Shown here: piece by piece, positions 1 to 24,073 of the stretch
How positions within the stretch are numbered: the stretch's first letter is position 1
Layout of the letters: each line of letters opens with the position of its first letter
From: a virus
Strand: one strand, 5' to 3'
IMG/VR virus record: IMGVR_UViG_3300031566_006338
Span: 1-27,981 of that record
DNA: 27,981 nucleotides
The notes under the pieces: generated by a model
Database searches by the model: none
Told to the model about the DNA's origin: nothing
Seen by the model: the letters and a program-made list of their open reading frames with translations, nothing else
Made by a program: the position numbers and the translations under genes

Positions 1-843
1 GGACCGGAAGCTGTCCCTGTCAGCCCTTCTCCGCGGCCGGAAAGCGAAAAGGAACGGCGGACGAACGCCACCTTTGGCCCGCTTTTCTGCGGCTCATCGC
101 CGAGTGCCGGCCTGCAACGGTCTTTGGAGAGCAGGTTGCGAGCAGGCTTGGACGTGAATGGCTCGCCGGAGTACGAACTGACCTGGAAGCATTGGGATAT
201 GCTTTCGGGGCTGCCGATCTGCCGGCTTGCTGCCAAGGCGCGCCGCACATCAGGCAAAGGCTGTTCTGGGTGGCTGACAGCAGCGGCAAGAGATGTATCG
301 GGGAAAAGTGGGGCGGGGCGTCAGGCGAGGAAGGGAAACCCGGACGATACGCTCTCCAATGCTGCGGAACTGGCGGGATACCCGACGCCGAAGGCTCAGG
401 AAATAGTGACTGGCAAAAAAGCACACGGGGGACTCTCGCTAACATCAACAGCAACATTGGCGAACTACGCGACACCCACAATGGCCGATGCGCAGAAGAA
501 GAAACCGTTCCACGATGCGCCGCAACCAGCGTTGGCCTATCAGGCGCACCTGGCGGGCTATGCGACGCCGACCAGACGGGACCACAAGGACGGAGCGGAG
601 TGCCAGAATGTCAAGGAAAATGCGCTACTAGCCAGGCAGGTTTGGGGTTCTGGTTCCCCTTCGACATCATCCCCTTCCGAGACGGAAAAGCGCGGCGCGT
701 TGAACCCGGAACTTTCCCGCTGGCTCATGGGGTTCCCGCCAGAGTGGTCAAGCTGCGCGGATACGGCAATGCAATCTGCCCCCAAGCGGCAGCGGCGTTC
801 ATCAGGGCGTACTGCGAAGCCCCAGGAGGCCCCGCATGAGTGA
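1..843 (+). other. Open overlapping frame on the methyltransferase gene (possible overprinted protein)
   Basis: This frame is open from the window edge to the TGA at 841-843, with a first internal ATG at 124. Its product contains SPEYELTWKHWDM, ICRLAAKARRTSG, three repeats of the form LA(G/N)Y(P/A)TP (codons near 370-390, 457-480 and 550-575) and LNPELSRWLMGFPPEW. From memory, these phrases match a protein type often annotated in phages as hypothetical or methyltransferase-like. It carries none of the C5-methyltransferase catalytic motifs, which are all in the other frame. It may be a real overprinted protein, or a conserved shadow produced by selection on the other frame. I do not claim it is expressed. 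Confidence 0.3.
3..839 (+). CDS. DNA cytosine-5 methyltransferase, 5'-truncated by window edge
   Basis: Catalyses transfer of a methyl group from S-adenosylmethionine to C5 of cytosine in a specific DNA site. The 278 visible residues begin at motif IV (PCQPF, catalytic Cys codon at 18-20). They continue with FGEQV, a variant of the motif VI ENV block (residues 41-45), and motif VIII (PHIRQRLFWVA, 81-91). A variable region that should be the target-recognition domain follows, then the C-terminal motif X-like YGNAICPQ. Motifs I-III lie upstream of the window. The stop overlaps the next start (ATGA at 836-839), which suggests translational coupling and supports this frame as the real one. GEQV in place of ENV is common in phage enzymes as far as I recall. 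Another complete reading frame covers the same DNA and is listed separately. The family call is secure; the target site cannot be read from sequence. Confidence 0.9.
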   Translation, partial: TGSCPCQPFSAAGKRKGTADERHLWPAFLRLIAECRPATVFGEQVASRLGREWLAGVRTDLEALGYAFGAADLPACCQGAPHIRQRLFWVADSSGKRCIGEKWGGASGEEGKPGRYALQCCGTGGIPDAEGSGNSDWQKSTRGTLANINSNIGELRDTHNGRCAEEETVPRCAATSVGLSGAPGGLCDADQTGPQGRSGVPECQGKCATSQAGLGFWFPFDIIPFRDGKARRVEPGTFPLAHGVPARVVKLRGYGNAICPQAAAAFIRAYCEAPGGPA

Positions 844-1672
844 TCGAAACACGAAGACCGCGGAGCGACCCATCAGTTCAAAGATGATCCTCAAACTACT
901 TGCGACAAAGCACGCCAGCGACGTGTTTGTGTCGGAGTGCAAGGATGGCCCGACCTGGGGGAGCGGCCCTTACGGCTCGCACCTTCGCATGGACGCCTGG
1001 GTAATGAAAAGGTCCTGGGCCAACCCGCTCGTGATCGTCTATGAGGCGAAGATCGCGCGCGGGGATTTCCTGGGCGATGAGAAGTGGCACTTGTACTTGC
1101 CTTACTGCAATGAATTCTACTTCGTCTGCCCGACGGGCCTGCTGGCCGTGGAGGAGCTGCCGGCCGAGGCGGGGCTCTTGTACGTGTCCAGGACGGGCAG
1201 CCGATTGTACCTGAAAAAGAAGGCGCAGCGTCGCACGGTCGAAATCCCTGAAGCCCTGTACAGGTACATCTTGATGAGCAGGTCGCGGATTGACCCTGAA
1301 CACGAGATAGACAAAAACCCCGGAGGGACGGCCCAGTATTGGCGCGAGTGGCTCGCCCAAAAGGGAGACAATCGCAAATTAGGATATGAAGTTTCCACGG
1401 CGATACGGCGCAAGGTCGCTGCCGTCGAGGCTGAAAATAGAAGGCTTCGAGACGAAAACGCGGGCGTGGCTGAGACGAAGGCGGCACTGGAGGCTCTTGG
1501 AATCGAATCCTCGCGACATGCCTCGACCTGGCTCGCCGAGACGACGCGGCGCAGGATCGAGGCCCTCAAGAAGTTAATTCCGCCCCACCTTTCGCCGATG
1601 ATCGGCAGGCTCATCGAGGGTTTGACGAAGTGCAGGCAAGCCCTGGACGGGAGCGCCAATGATGACGCGTGA
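836..1672 (+). CDS. MmcB-like PD-(D/E)XK nuclease-fold protein
   Basis: This 278-residue protein resembles the MmcB family of DNA-repair-associated proteins, which have a restriction-endonuclease-like fold. The visible core is DAWVM (D53), followed by VIVYEAKIARGDFLGDEKW, whose E70-x-K72 fits the (D/E)xK catalytic pair. It continues with YLPYCNEFYFVCP (residues 88-99), typical of the family. After about residue 175 the chain becomes charged and helical (EAENRRLRDENAG), probably a coiled coil that ordinary MmcB proteins of about 150 residues lack. It starts inside the end of the methyltransferase gene (ATGA) and ends by ATGA overlap with the next gene, so the three are likely co-translated. 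A role as nuclease or DNA-end-processing partner of the methyltransferase is possible, but a restriction function is only inference. Confidence 0.65.
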   Translation: MSDRNTKTAERPISSKMILKLLATKHASDVFVSECKDGPTWGSGPYGSHLRMDAWVMKRSWANPLVIVYEAKIARGDFLGDEKWHLYLPYCNEFYFVCPTGLLAVEELPAEAGLLYVSRTGSRLYLKKKAQRRTVEIPEALYRYILMSRSRIDPEHEIDKNPGGTAQYWREWLAQKGDNRKLGYEVSTAIRRKVAAVEAENRRLRDENAGVAETKAALEALGIESSRHASTWLAETTRRRIEALKKLIPPHLSPMIGRLIEGLTKCRQALDGSANDDA

Positions 1673-2753: not shown

Positions 2754-3644
2754 GTGAGACGATACTTGAACGGCAAATCGATGGACGACGTTGCAATCGC
2801 GCGGATTCGGGAGTTTGAACCAGAAGCGTTGCGGATGCATCCGAACGGCTACTGGCTCGCGTTCAGCGGCGGGAAAGACTCCGTGGTAATTCTCGATCTG
2901 ACGAAACGCGCGGACGTAAGCTTTGAGGCTCACTACAATCTGACAACGGTTGACCCGCCGGAGTTGGTGCATTTCATCAAGACATTCCCCGAAGTCCGAA
3001 TCGACAGGCCGCCGCTGACGATGTGGCAATTGATACGCAAAGAAGGGATGCCGCCGCGCCGCAATGCCCGATTCTGCTGTCAAGAACTAAAGGAACGCGG
3101 CGGCACAGGGCGGCTCACTATAACAGGCGTGCGCTGGGGCGAGTCCAACCGCCGAGCTAAACGCCAGATGAGGGAGGCTTGCTACCGAGACAAGACGAAG
3201 CGGTACTTACACCCGATCATCGACTGGCCGACCGATGCCGTGTGGGAATATATCAGAGAGCGCAGGTTGCGGTACTGCTCCCTCTATGACGAGGGATTTG
3301 AACGCCTTGGCTGTGTGCTCTGCCCGATGACGAGCGACATCGAAAGGCACTTGGCGCGATGGCCGAAATTGTGTGCGGGGTGGGAGCGGGCAATCAAAAG
3401 CACGTTCCGCCCCGGCTACGTTAGCAGAAGCGGCACAACATTCGCGAGCGCGGAAGAATATTGGCGCTGGTGGCTGGACCGCAATGCGCCGGCCAGGCGC
3501 GCCGATGACGCCGCGGTATTGTTCGAAGATGACCCTGCCGCAACCGAGGCCGCCCGGCCCCCGACGCCGCTGGTTGAGGAGAAGCGCCCCGCCGCGTGGA
3601 ATAGCCTGGTTGGGGGAATAATCGCAATGGGAGGCCGCATGTGA
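2754..3644 (+). CDS. PAPS-reductase-like PP-loop protein
   Basis: A 296-residue member of the phosphoadenosine phosphosulfate reductase family, which shares the PP-loop ATPase fold. SGGKDS at residues 38-43 is the nucleotide-binding loop. Cysteines C108/C109 (RFCCQELK), C175, and C187/C190 (GCVLCPM) could hold an iron-sulfur cluster, as in DndC-type relatives. TGVRWGES (125-131) is the conserved arginine region. Phages often encode such proteins; proposed roles are sulfur metabolism or sulfur-containing nucleic-acid modification, and the substrate here is unknown. The GTG start at 2754 is chosen because GAGGAG lies seven bases upstream and the PP-loop follows at the usual distance. The stop overlaps the next ATG. 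No other dnd-type genes are visible, so phosphorothioation is not supported. Confidence 0.8.
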   Translation: MRRYLNGKSMDDVAIARIREFEPEALRMHPNGYWLAFSGGKDSVVILDLTKRADVSFEAHYNLTTVDPPELVHFIKTFPEVRIDRPPLTMWQLIRKEGMPPRRNARFCCQELKERGGTGRLTITGVRWGESNRRAKRQMREACYRDKTKRYLHPIIDWPTDAVWEYIRERRLRYCSLYDEGFERLGCVLCPMTSDIERHLARWPKLCAGWERAIKSTFRPGYVSRSGTTFASAEEYWRWWLDRNAPARRADDAAVLFEDDPAATEAARPPTPLVEEKRPAAWNSLVGGIIAMGGRM

Positions 3645-19978: not shown

Positions 19979-21720
19979 TGGCACCGAAGGAACAAACCAG
20001 CTCGCTGATCGAAAGGGCCGGCCGCGCCGCGGGCGACTTCGTCCGCCGGTTCCGCCAGGCTTCCGTTCCGCCGATCGAACTCGCCGGCACTTACCACGAG
20101 GCCGCGCGCAAGGACGCCACGACCGCCGACTGGCGGGCGGCGCTGACCTCCGCCGACCAGTCCATCCTCGACGACCTCGACACGATGCTCGCCCGCAGCC
20201 GGACGATGATCGCCAACGACGGCTACGCCGCCAGTATGCAGGGCGGCTACAGGCGCTCAGTCGTCGGCGGCGGCATAACGGCCCGCTCGGCCGCCAGGCA
20301 CCCCGACACGAACGTGATGCTCAAGAGCTTCAACGCCGAGCTTGACGCCCTTTGGAACGAATACTATTGGGACCCGGCAGTCTGCGACGCCGAGCAGACC
20401 AAGACCATGCCGGAAAAACAGCAGCTCTGGATGAACGAGCTGTTCGCCGCCGGCGGAGTGTTCATCGTCGAGGACTACCTGCCTAGAGGCGAGGCCGCGG
20501 CCCTGGTGCTCCAGGAGATCGAGTACGAGCAGCGCGACACGCTGCTGACGGATTTCGAGGGCCGCGCCGTCCGCGGCGGCATCGAGCTGGGAAGCCGGCA
20601 CGAGCCGCTGGCGTACCACCTCTACACGGCGGCGCACCCGCTCGATGACTACGGCAGCAAGTCGCGGCGAGTACCCGCCGACCGCTGCATCCACCTGTAC
20701 CGCCAGGACCGCGTCCGCCAGCGGATCGGTGCGCCGTGGATGCGCCCCATCATGCAATCGATTCGCAACCTGGCGATGTTCGATAACTACACGATGCATA
20801 CCTCGCGGACTCGGGCCGCATACGTCGGCTTCATCGAGCAGCCCGACGCCGGCGGCCCGCCGACGCTGCCGGGCGTTGTGGCCGCGCGCCTCAGTGCGGC
20901 GCGCCCGGGCGGCCAGCCGAGCGAGGCTGAACTTGCCGGCAGGATTGAGATTGCCGTACAGTCCGGCATGTTCGCGGTCCTGAAGCCGGGACAGAAGCCG
21001 CACTTTCCCAACGTCGCCAGCCCCGACACCATGTACCCGCCGTTCGTCCTGGAGCAGCTCAAGCGGATCTCCGCGGGCACCGGCCTGGACCTGACCACCG
21101 TCGCCCGCTGGTACGCAGATGGAAATTTCAGCAGCCAGCGCCAGGCGAAATTGGACATGTGGGCCGAGGTCGACTGGATCCAGGACATCCTCTTCATTCA
21201 CAAGGCGATGCGCCGCATCCGCCGGCGGTTCGTCGAGCTGAACATACTCGAAGGCCGCCTGCGGGCCACGGGCTACGCCGAAAGCCAGCGATGGCGCACG
21301 GCCTACCTGACGACCAACTGGCAGGGCCCGCCGAAACACACGATCGACGAGATCAAGGACCAGGCCGCCTGGAGCATGAAGTTCAAGAACCTGATCGGCA
21401 GCCCCCAGGAATACTGCAACGAACAAGGCAAGGACATCCGCGACGTGCTGGCCGAGATCGACGAGTTCAGGCGGATGGCGCAGAACGATTACAACCTCGG
21501 CGACCTGTTGCCCCTGATCTGGGGAACCTCGATCGCCAACCAGCCCAAGGCCGGGAAAAAGCCCGCCGACCCGTCCAGGGCCGGCGACAACGGAAATGAC
21601 GCGGACGACGGCGACCTGGCCGGCCTCGTGGCCAGGCAGGCGAGGCTTCAGGCGATTCTCGATGACGGAGACGGCCCGCCACGCGGGTCGTATAGCGACA
21701 ATGGCGCGCGCAGATTGTGA
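19978..21720 (+). CDS. Portal protein, lambda gpB family
   Basis: Forms the dodecameric vertex through which DNA is packaged. The 580 residues carry recognisable family features: LDTMLARSRTMIANDGYAAS (about 64-83) followed by RRSVVGGGI, VPADRCIHLYRQDRVRQRIGAPWM, the central FDNYTMHTSRTRAA segment, and SAGTGLDLTTVARWYADGNF and SSQRQAKLDMW. ATG 19978 overlaps the upstream stop and has a perfect AGGAGG eight bases before it. The C-terminus (PPRGSYSDNGARRL) is encoded by an inverted copy of the dispersed palindromic element, suggesting that the natural end was altered by insertion. It overlaps the protease/capsid gene. Confidence 0.9.
   Translation: MAPKEQTSSLIERAGRAAGDFVRRFRQASVPPIELAGTYHEAARKDATTADWRAALTSADQSILDDLDTMLARSRTMIANDGYAASMQGGYRRSVVGGGITARSAARHPDTNVMLKSFNAELDALWNEYYWDPAVCDAEQTKTMPEKQQLWMNELFAAGGVFIVEDYLPRGEAAALVLQEIEYEQRDTLLTDFEGRAVRGGIELGSRHEPLAYHLYTAAHPLDDYGSKSRRVPADRCIHLYRQDRVRQRIGAPWMRPIMQSIRNLAMFDNYTMHTSRTRAAYVGFIEQPDAGGPPTLPGVVAARLSAARPGGQPSEAELAGRIEIAVQSGMFAVLKPGQKPHFPNVASPDTMYPPFVLEQLKRISAGTGLDLTTVARWYADGNFSSQRQAKLDMWAEVDWIQDILFIHKAMRRIRRRFVELNILEGRLRATGYAESQRWRTAYLTTNWQGPPKHTIDEIKDQAAWSMKFKNLIGSPQEYCNEQGKDIRDVLAEIDEFRRMAQNDYNLGDLLPLIWGTSIANQPKAGKKPADPSRAGDNGNDADDGDLAGLVARQARLQAILDDGDGPPRGSYSDNGARRL
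21675..21699 (-). repeat. Dispersed palindromic element, copy 5 (inverted, at gene junction)
   Basis: The reverse complement reads GTCGCTATACGACCCGC then GTG and GCGGG, one transition away from the 17-base consensus. It spans the last codons of the portal gene and ends just before ATG 21701 of the protease/capsid gene. Confidence 0.7.
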
Positions 21721-24073
21721 CAACGCGGTATCGCTGGCCCGCAGCCGCGACGACAGAGAAGTCAACCTCGTCCAGGCCACGGCCTTCACGGCCGAGGGGC
21801 TGAAGATCGAGGACGCGGGCGGCGACCTGGGCGGCGGCGTGATCCGCAACGCGGCGGTGATCACGGCCGGCATGGCCTACCCGCTGCTGGGCGAGCCGTT
21901 CGAGGTGGACGGCGTGATGCTCCGCCAAGTGGCGGATTCCATCAACGCCAACCCCGTCGGGGTCAAGATGCGCCTGACCCACCCGGAACTCCAGGACGGG
22001 CCGATGGGCGGCTACACCGACGGCATCCTGCGGCTCATGGGCCGCAGCAGGAACGCCCGCGTCGAGGCCGGCCGCGTCGTGGCCGACCTGCATATCGGGG
22101 CCTACGCGGACGACTCCCCCACCGGCAAGCTCGGCACCTACGTCCTGGGACTGGCGAGCAAGGACCCGACGGCGATCGGCGTGTCGATACGCTTCATCCG
22201 GGACCAATACATCGAACGCGAAGGTTTGCCGCCGCTGGGCCGGATACTCGGCGTGACGGCGACGGACATAGTAGAAAAACCCGGCGGCAACCCCAACGGT
22301 CTGCTGACCGGAGAGCACAAGGGCAATCAGGGCCAAGGCGATGGAACGCCAGGCCGGAAGAGTTATGGAGAACCAAACATGTTCAGCGAGCGACTGAAAA
22401 AGTATCTGATTTCCATCGGCCTGGCGGCGGATGCGAGCGACGAGCAGGCGACGGCGTTTCTGGCCGGCCTCAAGGACGACCAGAAGGAAATAGCCGAGGC
22501 ACTGGCCGGCGATCCGCCCACGGCGCCCAAGAAGACGAAGCCCAAGGGCAAGCCTCAGCCCCCGGCCGAGGCGGGCGACGCCGACAGCCTTGCGGGCGAT
22601 GACGGCGGCGAGCCGATCGTCAGCGCGGTCGACAGAGAGCGGATCGGCCAGGAGGCGCTGGCCGCCGACGGCACTCGCCGCAAGGACATCATGGCACTCG
22701 CCAAGGCCAAGAAGCTGCCGGAAACCTGGGCGGCCGGCCTGTGCGACCGCGGCGTGAGCCTCACCCATGCACAGGAATTGGCAGGCCTCGCCGAGGCGAT
22801 GCAGCCCCTGGAGATCGGGGCGGGCTCTCGCTTCCAGATGGGCGAGGACCGCAACCTGGCGACCCTCGCTACCGGCATGGTCGACGGCTGGCTGACGGCG
22901 GCGGACGTTCCGCTTTACACGTTCGACCGCTTCGGCCGGGCGGCCCGCGGCGCCGACGGCAAGCCCGTGGCCCGCAAGGCCCACGAGCGGGCGGGCCAGT
23001 TCCAGGCGCTCGGCCTGGTCGGCTCGGCCCGGGCCTACCTGCGCCACGTGGGCGTCGGCGACGTTGACGCCATGGGACTGGAGCAGATCCTCGACCTGGC
23101 GATGAACCCGCGGATGCTGGCCAGCCACCTGGGCAGCGCCGCGTTCCTGGCCATGGGTACGTCGGACTTCCCCTACGCCCTGGGCGACGCGATGAGGCGG
23201 ACCGTCCGGGCCTTCTACGCCGACAGCGAGGCCGCCGTGAGCTGGCCGCTGTGGTGCGGGCGCATGACGGCCCGCGACTACAGGCTGCACGACCTGCTCA
23301 CCATCAGCGAGCTGCCGGACCTGCTGGCGATGGACGAGGGCGAGCCGATCCGCTACGCGGTCCTGAGGGAGACCCGCGAGAGGATACAAGTCGCGCGCTT
23401 CGGCCGCGGGATGAAGATCACACACAAGGCGATCGTCAACGACGACACGGGCATCTTCAGCAACCTGCCCCGCGGCTGGGTCAGCTCGGCCCGGCGCAAG
23501 GAAGAGGTGCTGACCACGGCGATCATCACGGCCAACGCCGAGCTCTCGGACGAGATCCCGCTCTTCGACGAGGATCATGCGAACGTGGCGGTCGGCGGCG
23601 ACATCGGGGCCCCCTCGGTGCTGACCCTGTCGGCCGGCTACGCGGCGATGGCGCTCCAGAAGGGCCTGCAAACGCCCCAGGACGGCGACGCGGGCGCGGC
23701 CGTGCTCAACATCCGGCCCGTCGGCGTGCTCGTACCCGTGCAGCTCGAGATCACCACGCAGCAGCTCATCGCCTCGACGGTCGATCCGGCCAAGACCAAC
23801 CAGACGCCCAACCCGTTCGCCAACCGCCTCCGCGTCGTCGGCAGCGGGCAGCTCGGCATCGCGTCCGCAGCGGCCTGGTACATGTTCGGCGATCCGAACG
23901 GCCCGGGCGGCGGCGTGCGGCTGGCCTTCCTCGACGGCGAGGAAGCCCCGGTCATCAAGACCGAGACCGAGTTCGACAGCGGCGATTTGAAGGTCGCCTG
24001 CACCCACAACCTGGGCGCCAAGGCCAGCGACTATCGCGGCCTGTACGAAAACCCCGGCGAATCGGGCGAGTGA
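21701..24073 (+). CDS. Prohead protease / scaffold / major capsid fusion protein
   Basis: A single 790-residue frame joins three capsid functions. Residues 20-190 resemble a prohead serine protease, with MRLTHPE (H94) and GVSIRF (S162) as likely catalytic His and Ser. Residues 225-330 are helical and charged, like a scaffold (delta) region. The remainder is an HK97-fold major capsid protein (RIQVARFGRGMKITHKAIVND, VSSARRKEEVLTTAI, IPLFDEDHANVA, PVGVLVPVQLEITTQQLI). NCBI uses the name prohead protease/major capsid fusion for such proteins. ATG 21701 overlaps the portal gene by 20 bases; ATG 21662 is also possible. An internal ATG at 22379 with GGAG eight bases upstream could yield a separate scaffold-capsid product, so capsid copies may come from two starts. 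Confidence 0.88.
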   Translation: MARADCDNAVSLARSRDDREVNLVQATAFTAEGLKIEDAGGDLGGGVIRNAAVITAGMAYPLLGEPFEVDGVMLRQVADSINANPVGVKMRLTHPELQDGPMGGYTDGILRLMGRSRNARVEAGRVVADLHIGAYADDSPTGKLGTYVLGLASKDPTAIGVSIRFIRDQYIEREGLPPLGRILGVTATDIVEKPGGNPNGLLTGEHKGNQGQGDGTPGRKSYGEPNMFSERLKKYLISIGLAADASDEQATAFLAGLKDDQKEIAEALAGDPPTAPKKTKPKGKPQPPAEAGDADSLAGDDGGEPIVSAVDRERIGQEALAADGTRRKDIMALAKAKKLPETWAAGLCDRGVSLTHAQELAGLAEAMQPLEIGAGSRFQMGEDRNLATLATGMVDGWLTAADVPLYTFDRFGRAARGADGKPVARKAHERAGQFQALGLVGSARAYLRHVGVGDVDAMGLEQILDLAMNPRMLASHLGSAAFLAMGTSDFPYALGDAMRRTVRAFYADSEAAVSWPLWCGRMTARDYRLHDLLTISELPDLLAMDEGEPIRYAVLRETRERIQVARFGRGMKITHKAIVNDDTGIFSNLPRGWVSSARRKEEVLTTAIITANAELSDEIPLFDEDHANVAVGGDIGAPSVLTLSAGYAAMALQKGLQTPQDGDAGAAVLNIRPVGVLVPVQLEITTQQLIASTVDPAKTNQTPNPFANRLRVVGSGQLGIASAAAWYMFGDPNGPGGGVRLAFLDGEEAPVIKTETEFDSGDLKVACTHNLGAKASDYRGLYENPGESGE

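Follow-up and report, generated by a model that had tools for sequence, protein, structure and literature searches.

The window analysed here spans a 27,981-base virus contig that starts at the window edge, and its left end carries two overlapping frames whose 5′ ends are both cut off (Table 1). The frame from base 3 is referred to as alpha, and the frame from base 1, which is +1 relative to alpha, as beta; they are open over 3–839 and 1–843 respectively. Alpha matches PHROG_363 (E = 1.5e-50 in a PHROG profile search) and PF00145 (2.8e-14; 53.7 bits against a cut-off of 22), with the latter match stopping at profile position 162. Beta matches PHROG_1008 (E = 3.7e-25) over most of the protein (residues 2–260 on positions 42–287 of the 329-position profile), and profile searches found no Pfam or NCBIfam model for it. 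PHROG_1008 is thus the widely annotated phage family that an earlier note on this DNA had proposed for the second frame. Both PHROGs carry the label 'DNA methyltransferase', which in the case of PHROG_1008 conceals what is very probably a separate subunit, lacking catalytic motifs and encoded across PHROG_363. The gene that follows has a marginal MmcB-like match (PF06319, 7e-5), and a PAPS reductase domain protein is encoded at 2754–3644 (PF01507, 4.2e-23).

Table 1. Features of the nested alpha and beta frames at the left end of the window
Feature	Position	Strand	Description and evidence
Alpha chain	3–839	+	Putative catalytic subunit of a C5-cytosine methyltransferase, motifs IV–VIII and X; 278 aa; stop TGA 837–839; PHROG_363, PF00145
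Alpha motif IV, PCQPFS	15–32	+	Contains the catalytic cysteine; sequence; matches M.HhaI motif IV via profile A2
Alpha motif VI, variant GEQV for ENV	126–137	+	Sequence; G-E-Q invariant in A2
Alpha motif VIII, RQRLFWV	252–272	+	Sequence; M.HhaI alignment
Alpha variable stretch	282–650	+	Weak constraint (dN/dS 0.73); same DNA as the putative beta recognition region (dN/dS 0.39)
Alpha motif X, GYGNAI	759–776	+	Sequence; near-invariant in A2
Beta chain	1–843	+	Putative recognition region and motif IX; 280 aa; stop TGA 841–843; start codon off contig; PHROG_1008, profile A1, dN/dS in relatives
Beta EYELTWKHWDM	169–201	+	Trp of LTWK invariant in 84 beta sequences; helix-hairpin predicted with good confidence
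Beta recognition-region repeat LAGYPTP (putative)	370–390	+	Sequence; TPT-type repeats in one-chain homologues
Beta recognition-region repeat LANYATP (putative)	457–477	+	Sequence; TPT-type repeats in one-chain homologues
Beta recognition-region repeat LAGYATP, then TRRDHKDG (putative)	550–570	+	Sequence; TPT-type repeats in one-chain homologues
Beta motif IX, LNPELSRWLMGFPPEW (putative)	700–747	+	Sequence; lies between recognition region and motif X in one-chain homologues
Next gene	836–1672	+	Start ATG 836–838 overlaps the alpha stop (ATGA)

Alpha is recognisable as a C5-methyltransferase by the PCQ of motif IV and by a Pfam score above the cut-off. Its motif VI departs from the usual ENV, with the glutamate retained and G-E-Q invariant across this alpha subfamily. 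Motifs I–III of the window alpha lie off the contig, and full-length relatives have the catalytic motifs. A regular-expression search detected no canonical motif IX in any nested alpha (80/80 IMG/VR and 80/80 GTDB loci fetched with alpha); in the window it is found in beta and is absent from the alpha frame, in which the DNA of 700–747 reads VEPGTFPLAHGVPARVV. The claim that the alpha frame carries all of the catalytic motifs was therefore overstated, although motifs IV, VIII, and X are indeed present. In the proteobacterial alpha subfamily (L101:1781–2638, alignment A2) a motif II/III-like stretch (YYNEIDPYAAAWLRNLI...GDVDERSI) precedes motif I (HFFAGIGGW), unlike the Bloom- and WillSterrel-type enzymes, which have the usual motif order. 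The catalytic domain of this subfamily is possibly reordered, a suggestion that a weak local alignment test leaves short of a claim.

The phrases quoted from the second frame in the earlier note are all present in beta at the positions given in Table 1, and related beta sequences share the consensus YxLTWKxWxMPSGxPICALRASARRTS, several LAGWPTP units, and LNPAxSRWLMGxPxEW. Within the window alone, shuffling the synonymous codons of alpha predicts 4.3 stops in the beta frame, where none is present (P = 0.0018), so the openness of both frames that had first drawn attention to the segment is beyond chance; the +2 frame contains 8 stops against 8.0 expected from the same shuffle. The contig is GC-rich and has many long chance-like frames, and openness alone is thus weak evidence here. 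An antisense open frame of 846 codons (21467–24007, − strand) lies opposite an 825-codon frame (21596–24073, + strand).

Relatives were collected by scanning IMG/VR with alpha and with beta (80 loci each) and later with a beta profile, and by scanning GTDB with an alpha profile. Because a beta query selects for an open second frame, statements on openness and universality are drawn from the alpha-fetched sets, with the beta-fetched loci left out. The first 160 loci supplied the profiles, which leaves the GTDB set independent of these; the IMG/VR sets share some contigs with each other. A beta-profile match (E up to 1e-3) overlaps alpha in frame +1 in all 80 IMG/VR and all 80 GTDB loci fetched with alpha. 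The stop count covered the region that begins at the PCQ codons and ends 40 codons short of the match end, with expectations from synonymous shuffles. In the 78 IMG/VR loci counted, 178.7 stops are expected in the +1 frame and 3 are seen; the corresponding numbers for 70 GTDB loci are 136.1 and 6. The +2 frame has about the expected number (635 seen and 620 expected in IMG/VR; 611 and 594 in GTDB). The depletion extends to the 12 loci below 53% GC (3 stops seen, 36.7 expected). Loci at 41–50% GC (Bacteroidota, Bacillota, and others) retain a +1 open frame of ~200–280 codons, most of these ending in LNPxWVEWLMGFPxGW-like motifs; the lowest-GC locus, from Arsenophonus, is degenerate. Individual loci vary, with a stop in alpha and an intact beta in L086, the converse in L157, and apparently frameshifted or degenerate frames in L110, L267, and L287.

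Selection on each frame was measured by sorting the substitutions in related pairs by their effect on alpha and on beta (overlapping-gene site classes), using pairs from both IMG/VR sets in which both frames were required to be open. Across 17 pairs the substitutions per site are 0.073 (NN), 0.169 (NS), 0.170 (SN), and ~1 (SS, a small and saturated class). Over the whole overlap dN/dS is 0.42 [0.37–0.49] for alpha and 0.45 [0.40–0.51] for beta (16 pairs, codon bootstrap; the intervals are somewhat too narrow because several pairs are from one clade). The same 16 pairs give values of 0.10 for alpha and 0.43 for beta over motifs IV–VIII, 0.73 [0.64–0.85] and 0.39 [0.33–0.45] over the variable middle, and 0.40 and 0.41 over the end region. 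Ten neighbouring genes of the same pairs served as a control; they have a dN/dS of 0.23, with 0.97 in their +1 frame, and their codon-position rates (0.100/0.082/0.254) reflect normal behaviour. Purifying selection acts on both frames, and it is chiefly for beta that the variable region is maintained. Relatives were also checked for the outcome named beforehand as refuting dual coding, namely that stops or non-synonymous changes build up freely in the second frame, and this was not found. The substitution pattern excludes a shadow frame.

The identity of beta is illuminated by relatives in which the same parts occur in a single chain. A query of one-chain-like phrases served solely as bait, and the conclusions rest on the records that it retrieved. 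Mycobacteriophage proteins WillSterrel gp071 and DLane gp65 contain in one frame motifs I–VIII, TPT-type repeats, and motifs IX (RLNPAFPEWMMGWPTGW in WillSterrel, RLAAAFPEWMMGWPAGW in DLane) and X. These enzymes have the same catalytic motifs and recognition repeats as the window pair but in a single frame with no nested gene. Both match PHROG_363 over their full length and PHROG_1008 over their second half (2.1e-72 and 1.3e-57 respectively for WillSterrel), and the beta profile A1 matches WillSterrel residues 189–354, between motifs VIII and X. By these matches beta corresponds to the recognition region and motif IX of the one-chain enzymes and alpha to the rest; none of the one-chain enzymes seen here has a part equivalent to the beta N-terminus. 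By this homology the beta repeats and LNPxxxRWLMGFPPEW are assigned as the target-recognition region and motif IX, both of which are absent from alpha. The earlier note set the repeats on top of the first frame's target-recognition region. They do occupy the same DNA, but the one-chain homologues show the relationship to be reversed, in that the repeats themselves are that region and belong to beta.

Several other arrangements are seen among relatives. In Nyxis and Lilbooboo the two genes are adjacent with a short overlap, and in ArV1 (067a/067b) and Leona (41/42) they overlap partly, with the same +1 relation and with motif X kept in the second gene. The nested form is also present in Paenibacillus, Lacticaseibacillus, Mycobacterium, Microbacterium, and Synechococcus phages. 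Two further candidates were rejected: SOVA965 is not a free-standing beta gene since an alpha frame runs across it, and a K. aerogenes plasmid match considered as an EaeI-type system is a broken phage remnant.

Structure predictions were made for the chains of a full-length relative (L101). The AlphaFold model of alpha (pTM 0.72) resembles M.HhaI and M.HaeIII and is good throughout except for residues 188–222, which lie inside the overlap; the variable stretch of alpha is predicted to be disordered in this relative. Beta alone is poorly predicted (pTM 0.30): confidence is limited to the hairpin around LTWK and the helices of motif IX, and residues 66–114 and 207–223 are ordered. The beta model has no fold match, and a sequence search for beta returned no solved structure. 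Poor folding alone would be expected of a subunit that needs its partner, and is not proof of one.

The 5′ truncation of the window places the beta start off the contig, and initiation was therefore examined in relatives whose alpha N-terminus is complete. Of 126 such loci, 122 have a +1 ATG 20–160 nt ahead of the PCQ codons, and in 103/126 it is accompanied by a Shine-Dalgarno-like motif (≥4 bases), compared with 15/126 for the +2 control; the commonest ATG positions are −143, −125, and −113, about 90–130 nt inside alpha. Beta is thus probably translated separately from its own start inside the alpha gene. The alternative is that programmed ribosomal frameshifting after motif VIII joins the frames into an alpha-beta fusion, with no independent initiation of beta. 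A +1 shift predicts the observed order of motifs I–VIII followed by the recognition region and motif IX in +1, and the one-chain homologues indicate that a fused product is viable. However, beta is under selection where it overlies alpha motifs IV–VIII (dN/dS 0.43), upstream of the motif VIII region, and this segment would be untranslated if the shift followed motif VIII. This observation and the conserved ATG with its Shine-Dalgarno-like site both favour separate initiation, and a fusion in the nested forms would moreover be without motif X. Frameshifting is accordingly a very unlikely explanation.

Two further readings of the second frame concern whether it encodes a protein and, if so, of what kind. 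High GC content together with methyltransferase conservation could generate a non-coding shadow, making PHROG_1008 an annotation artefact; high-GC windows do have many long spurious frames such as the 846-codon antisense example, and annotators disagree over the frame, with 12 nested records listing alpha only, beta only, or both. Yet stops are depleted 20- to 60-fold relative to synonymous shuffles, at low-GC loci too, sites that are synonymous in alpha and change beta evolve at 0.17 where sites silent in both are near saturation, and the control +1 frame of neighbouring genes looks non-coding. The beta family also occurs in frame within single-chain enzymes. A shadow is thus extremely improbable, and of the two explanations originally offered, overprinting or a shadow family, dual coding is the one supported by the stop counts, dN/dS, and the neighbour control. 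Beta might instead be a real phage protein with a role of its own, such as regulation or counter-defence, that is overprinted on the methyltransferase gene and is no subunit of the enzyme. Beta has no Pfam family, and its N-terminal part lacks a one-chain counterpart, but its second half is homologous to the recognition region and motif IX of one-chain enzymes, exactly those parts are missing from alpha, and the nested alpha-beta layout is found in every locus fetched. This reading too is unlikely. If overprinting means that a new protein is laid over an existing one, it applies to the N-terminal part of beta alone; the remainder looks like one enzyme divided between frames.

That the second frame is real and functional is nearly certain, and the nested pair very probably encodes a two-subunit C5-cytosine DNA methyltransferase of the M.EcoHK31I kind, with one subunit from each frame. 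Alpha would supply the AdoMet-binding and catalytic motifs and motif X. Beta, from an internal start codon in the alpha gene, would contribute motif IX and the repeats for target recognition. Together the chains would be expected to form a single working enzyme in which beta would set the DNA sequence recognised; their physical association and methylation activity are deduced from motif content and homology. The locus seems to have arisen by splitting of a one-chain enzyme between two frames, and a simple history fits, although the order of the frame changes is conjectural. In a one-chain ancestor the frame may first have shifted between motif VIII and the recognition region, followed by the gain of internal initiation by beta, and then by read-through of alpha and an indel between motifs IX and X that shifted X into the alpha frame. 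It is reasonably likely that such pairs form a class of C5-methyltransferases, spread over several phyla in both phages and bacteria, that is derived from a one-chain split, carries its catalytic and recognition halves in two frames, and has its recognition domain in a frame that often goes unannotated.

Genome annotation tends to retain just one of two overlapping frames, and the records examined here often lack either the catalytic or the recognition subunit. Nested records list alpha only in N15, BcepC6B, R9.1, and others, beta only in PMG1 and phiKX1, and both in K1ind2, PhiXhv-5, and Bloom. Methylation specificity would as a result be predicted from the wrong chain for many phages and prophages. 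In Gordonia phage McKinley, gp4 and gp5 (L266:795–1202 and 1249–2034) are annotated 'DNA methyltransferase' but resemble pieces of a beta chain with TPT repeats, and this stretch has no annotation for the catalytic frame.

The family provides a natural test of overlapping-gene origin, as one-chain, side-by-side, partly overlapping, and nested forms coexist and selection can be measured separately for each frame. If the two-frame class is as proposed, few full-length same-strand gene overlaps known in bacteria would be more widespread, and its intermediates would still be visible. The large natural set of split pairs is also of practical use for targeted methylation tools, and such tools have previously been built from two-chain enzymes of this type (PMC3439449). 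The kind itself has been known since M.EcoHK31I, and it is its breadth and the location of the recognition region in beta that appear under-recognised; a literature search of partial coverage found no paper describing such a breadth of nested pairs. What makes the family of interest is this breadth, together with the selection measured in both frames and the assignment of the recognition domain to beta.

Two known two-chain methyltransferases provide the closest comparisons, M.EcoHK31I, which recognises YGGCCR, and M.AquI, which recognises CYCGRG. The M.EcoHK31I small subunit was reportedly described by Lee et al. in 1995 as encoded in an alternative frame within the large-subunit gene; beta is likewise nested in +1 inside alpha throughout the alpha-fetched sets. 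M.EcoHK31I consists of two polypeptides, a large subunit with motifs I–VIII and X and a small subunit that alone has motif IX, and its predicted recognition domain has been placed in the large subunit (PMC3404938). The window pair similarly has the catalytic motifs and motif X without IX in alpha, and IX in beta. It differs in that the recognition region is more constrained in beta, in contrast to the large-subunit domain of the cited description, and in that the present family occurs in many phages as well as in bacteria of several phyla. M.AquI is also a two-chain enzyme split within the variable region, with motif X in the small subunit (PMC3404938), and its layout is that of the ArV1 and Leona relatives, in which motifs I–VIII are in alpha and the recognition region with motifs IX and X is in beta, in +1. 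In the window and in nearly all nested relatives, by contrast with M.AquI, motif X is in alpha and beta lies almost wholly within the alpha gene. Likened by layout and motif placement, the window belongs by every testable feature to the M.EcoHK31I kind.
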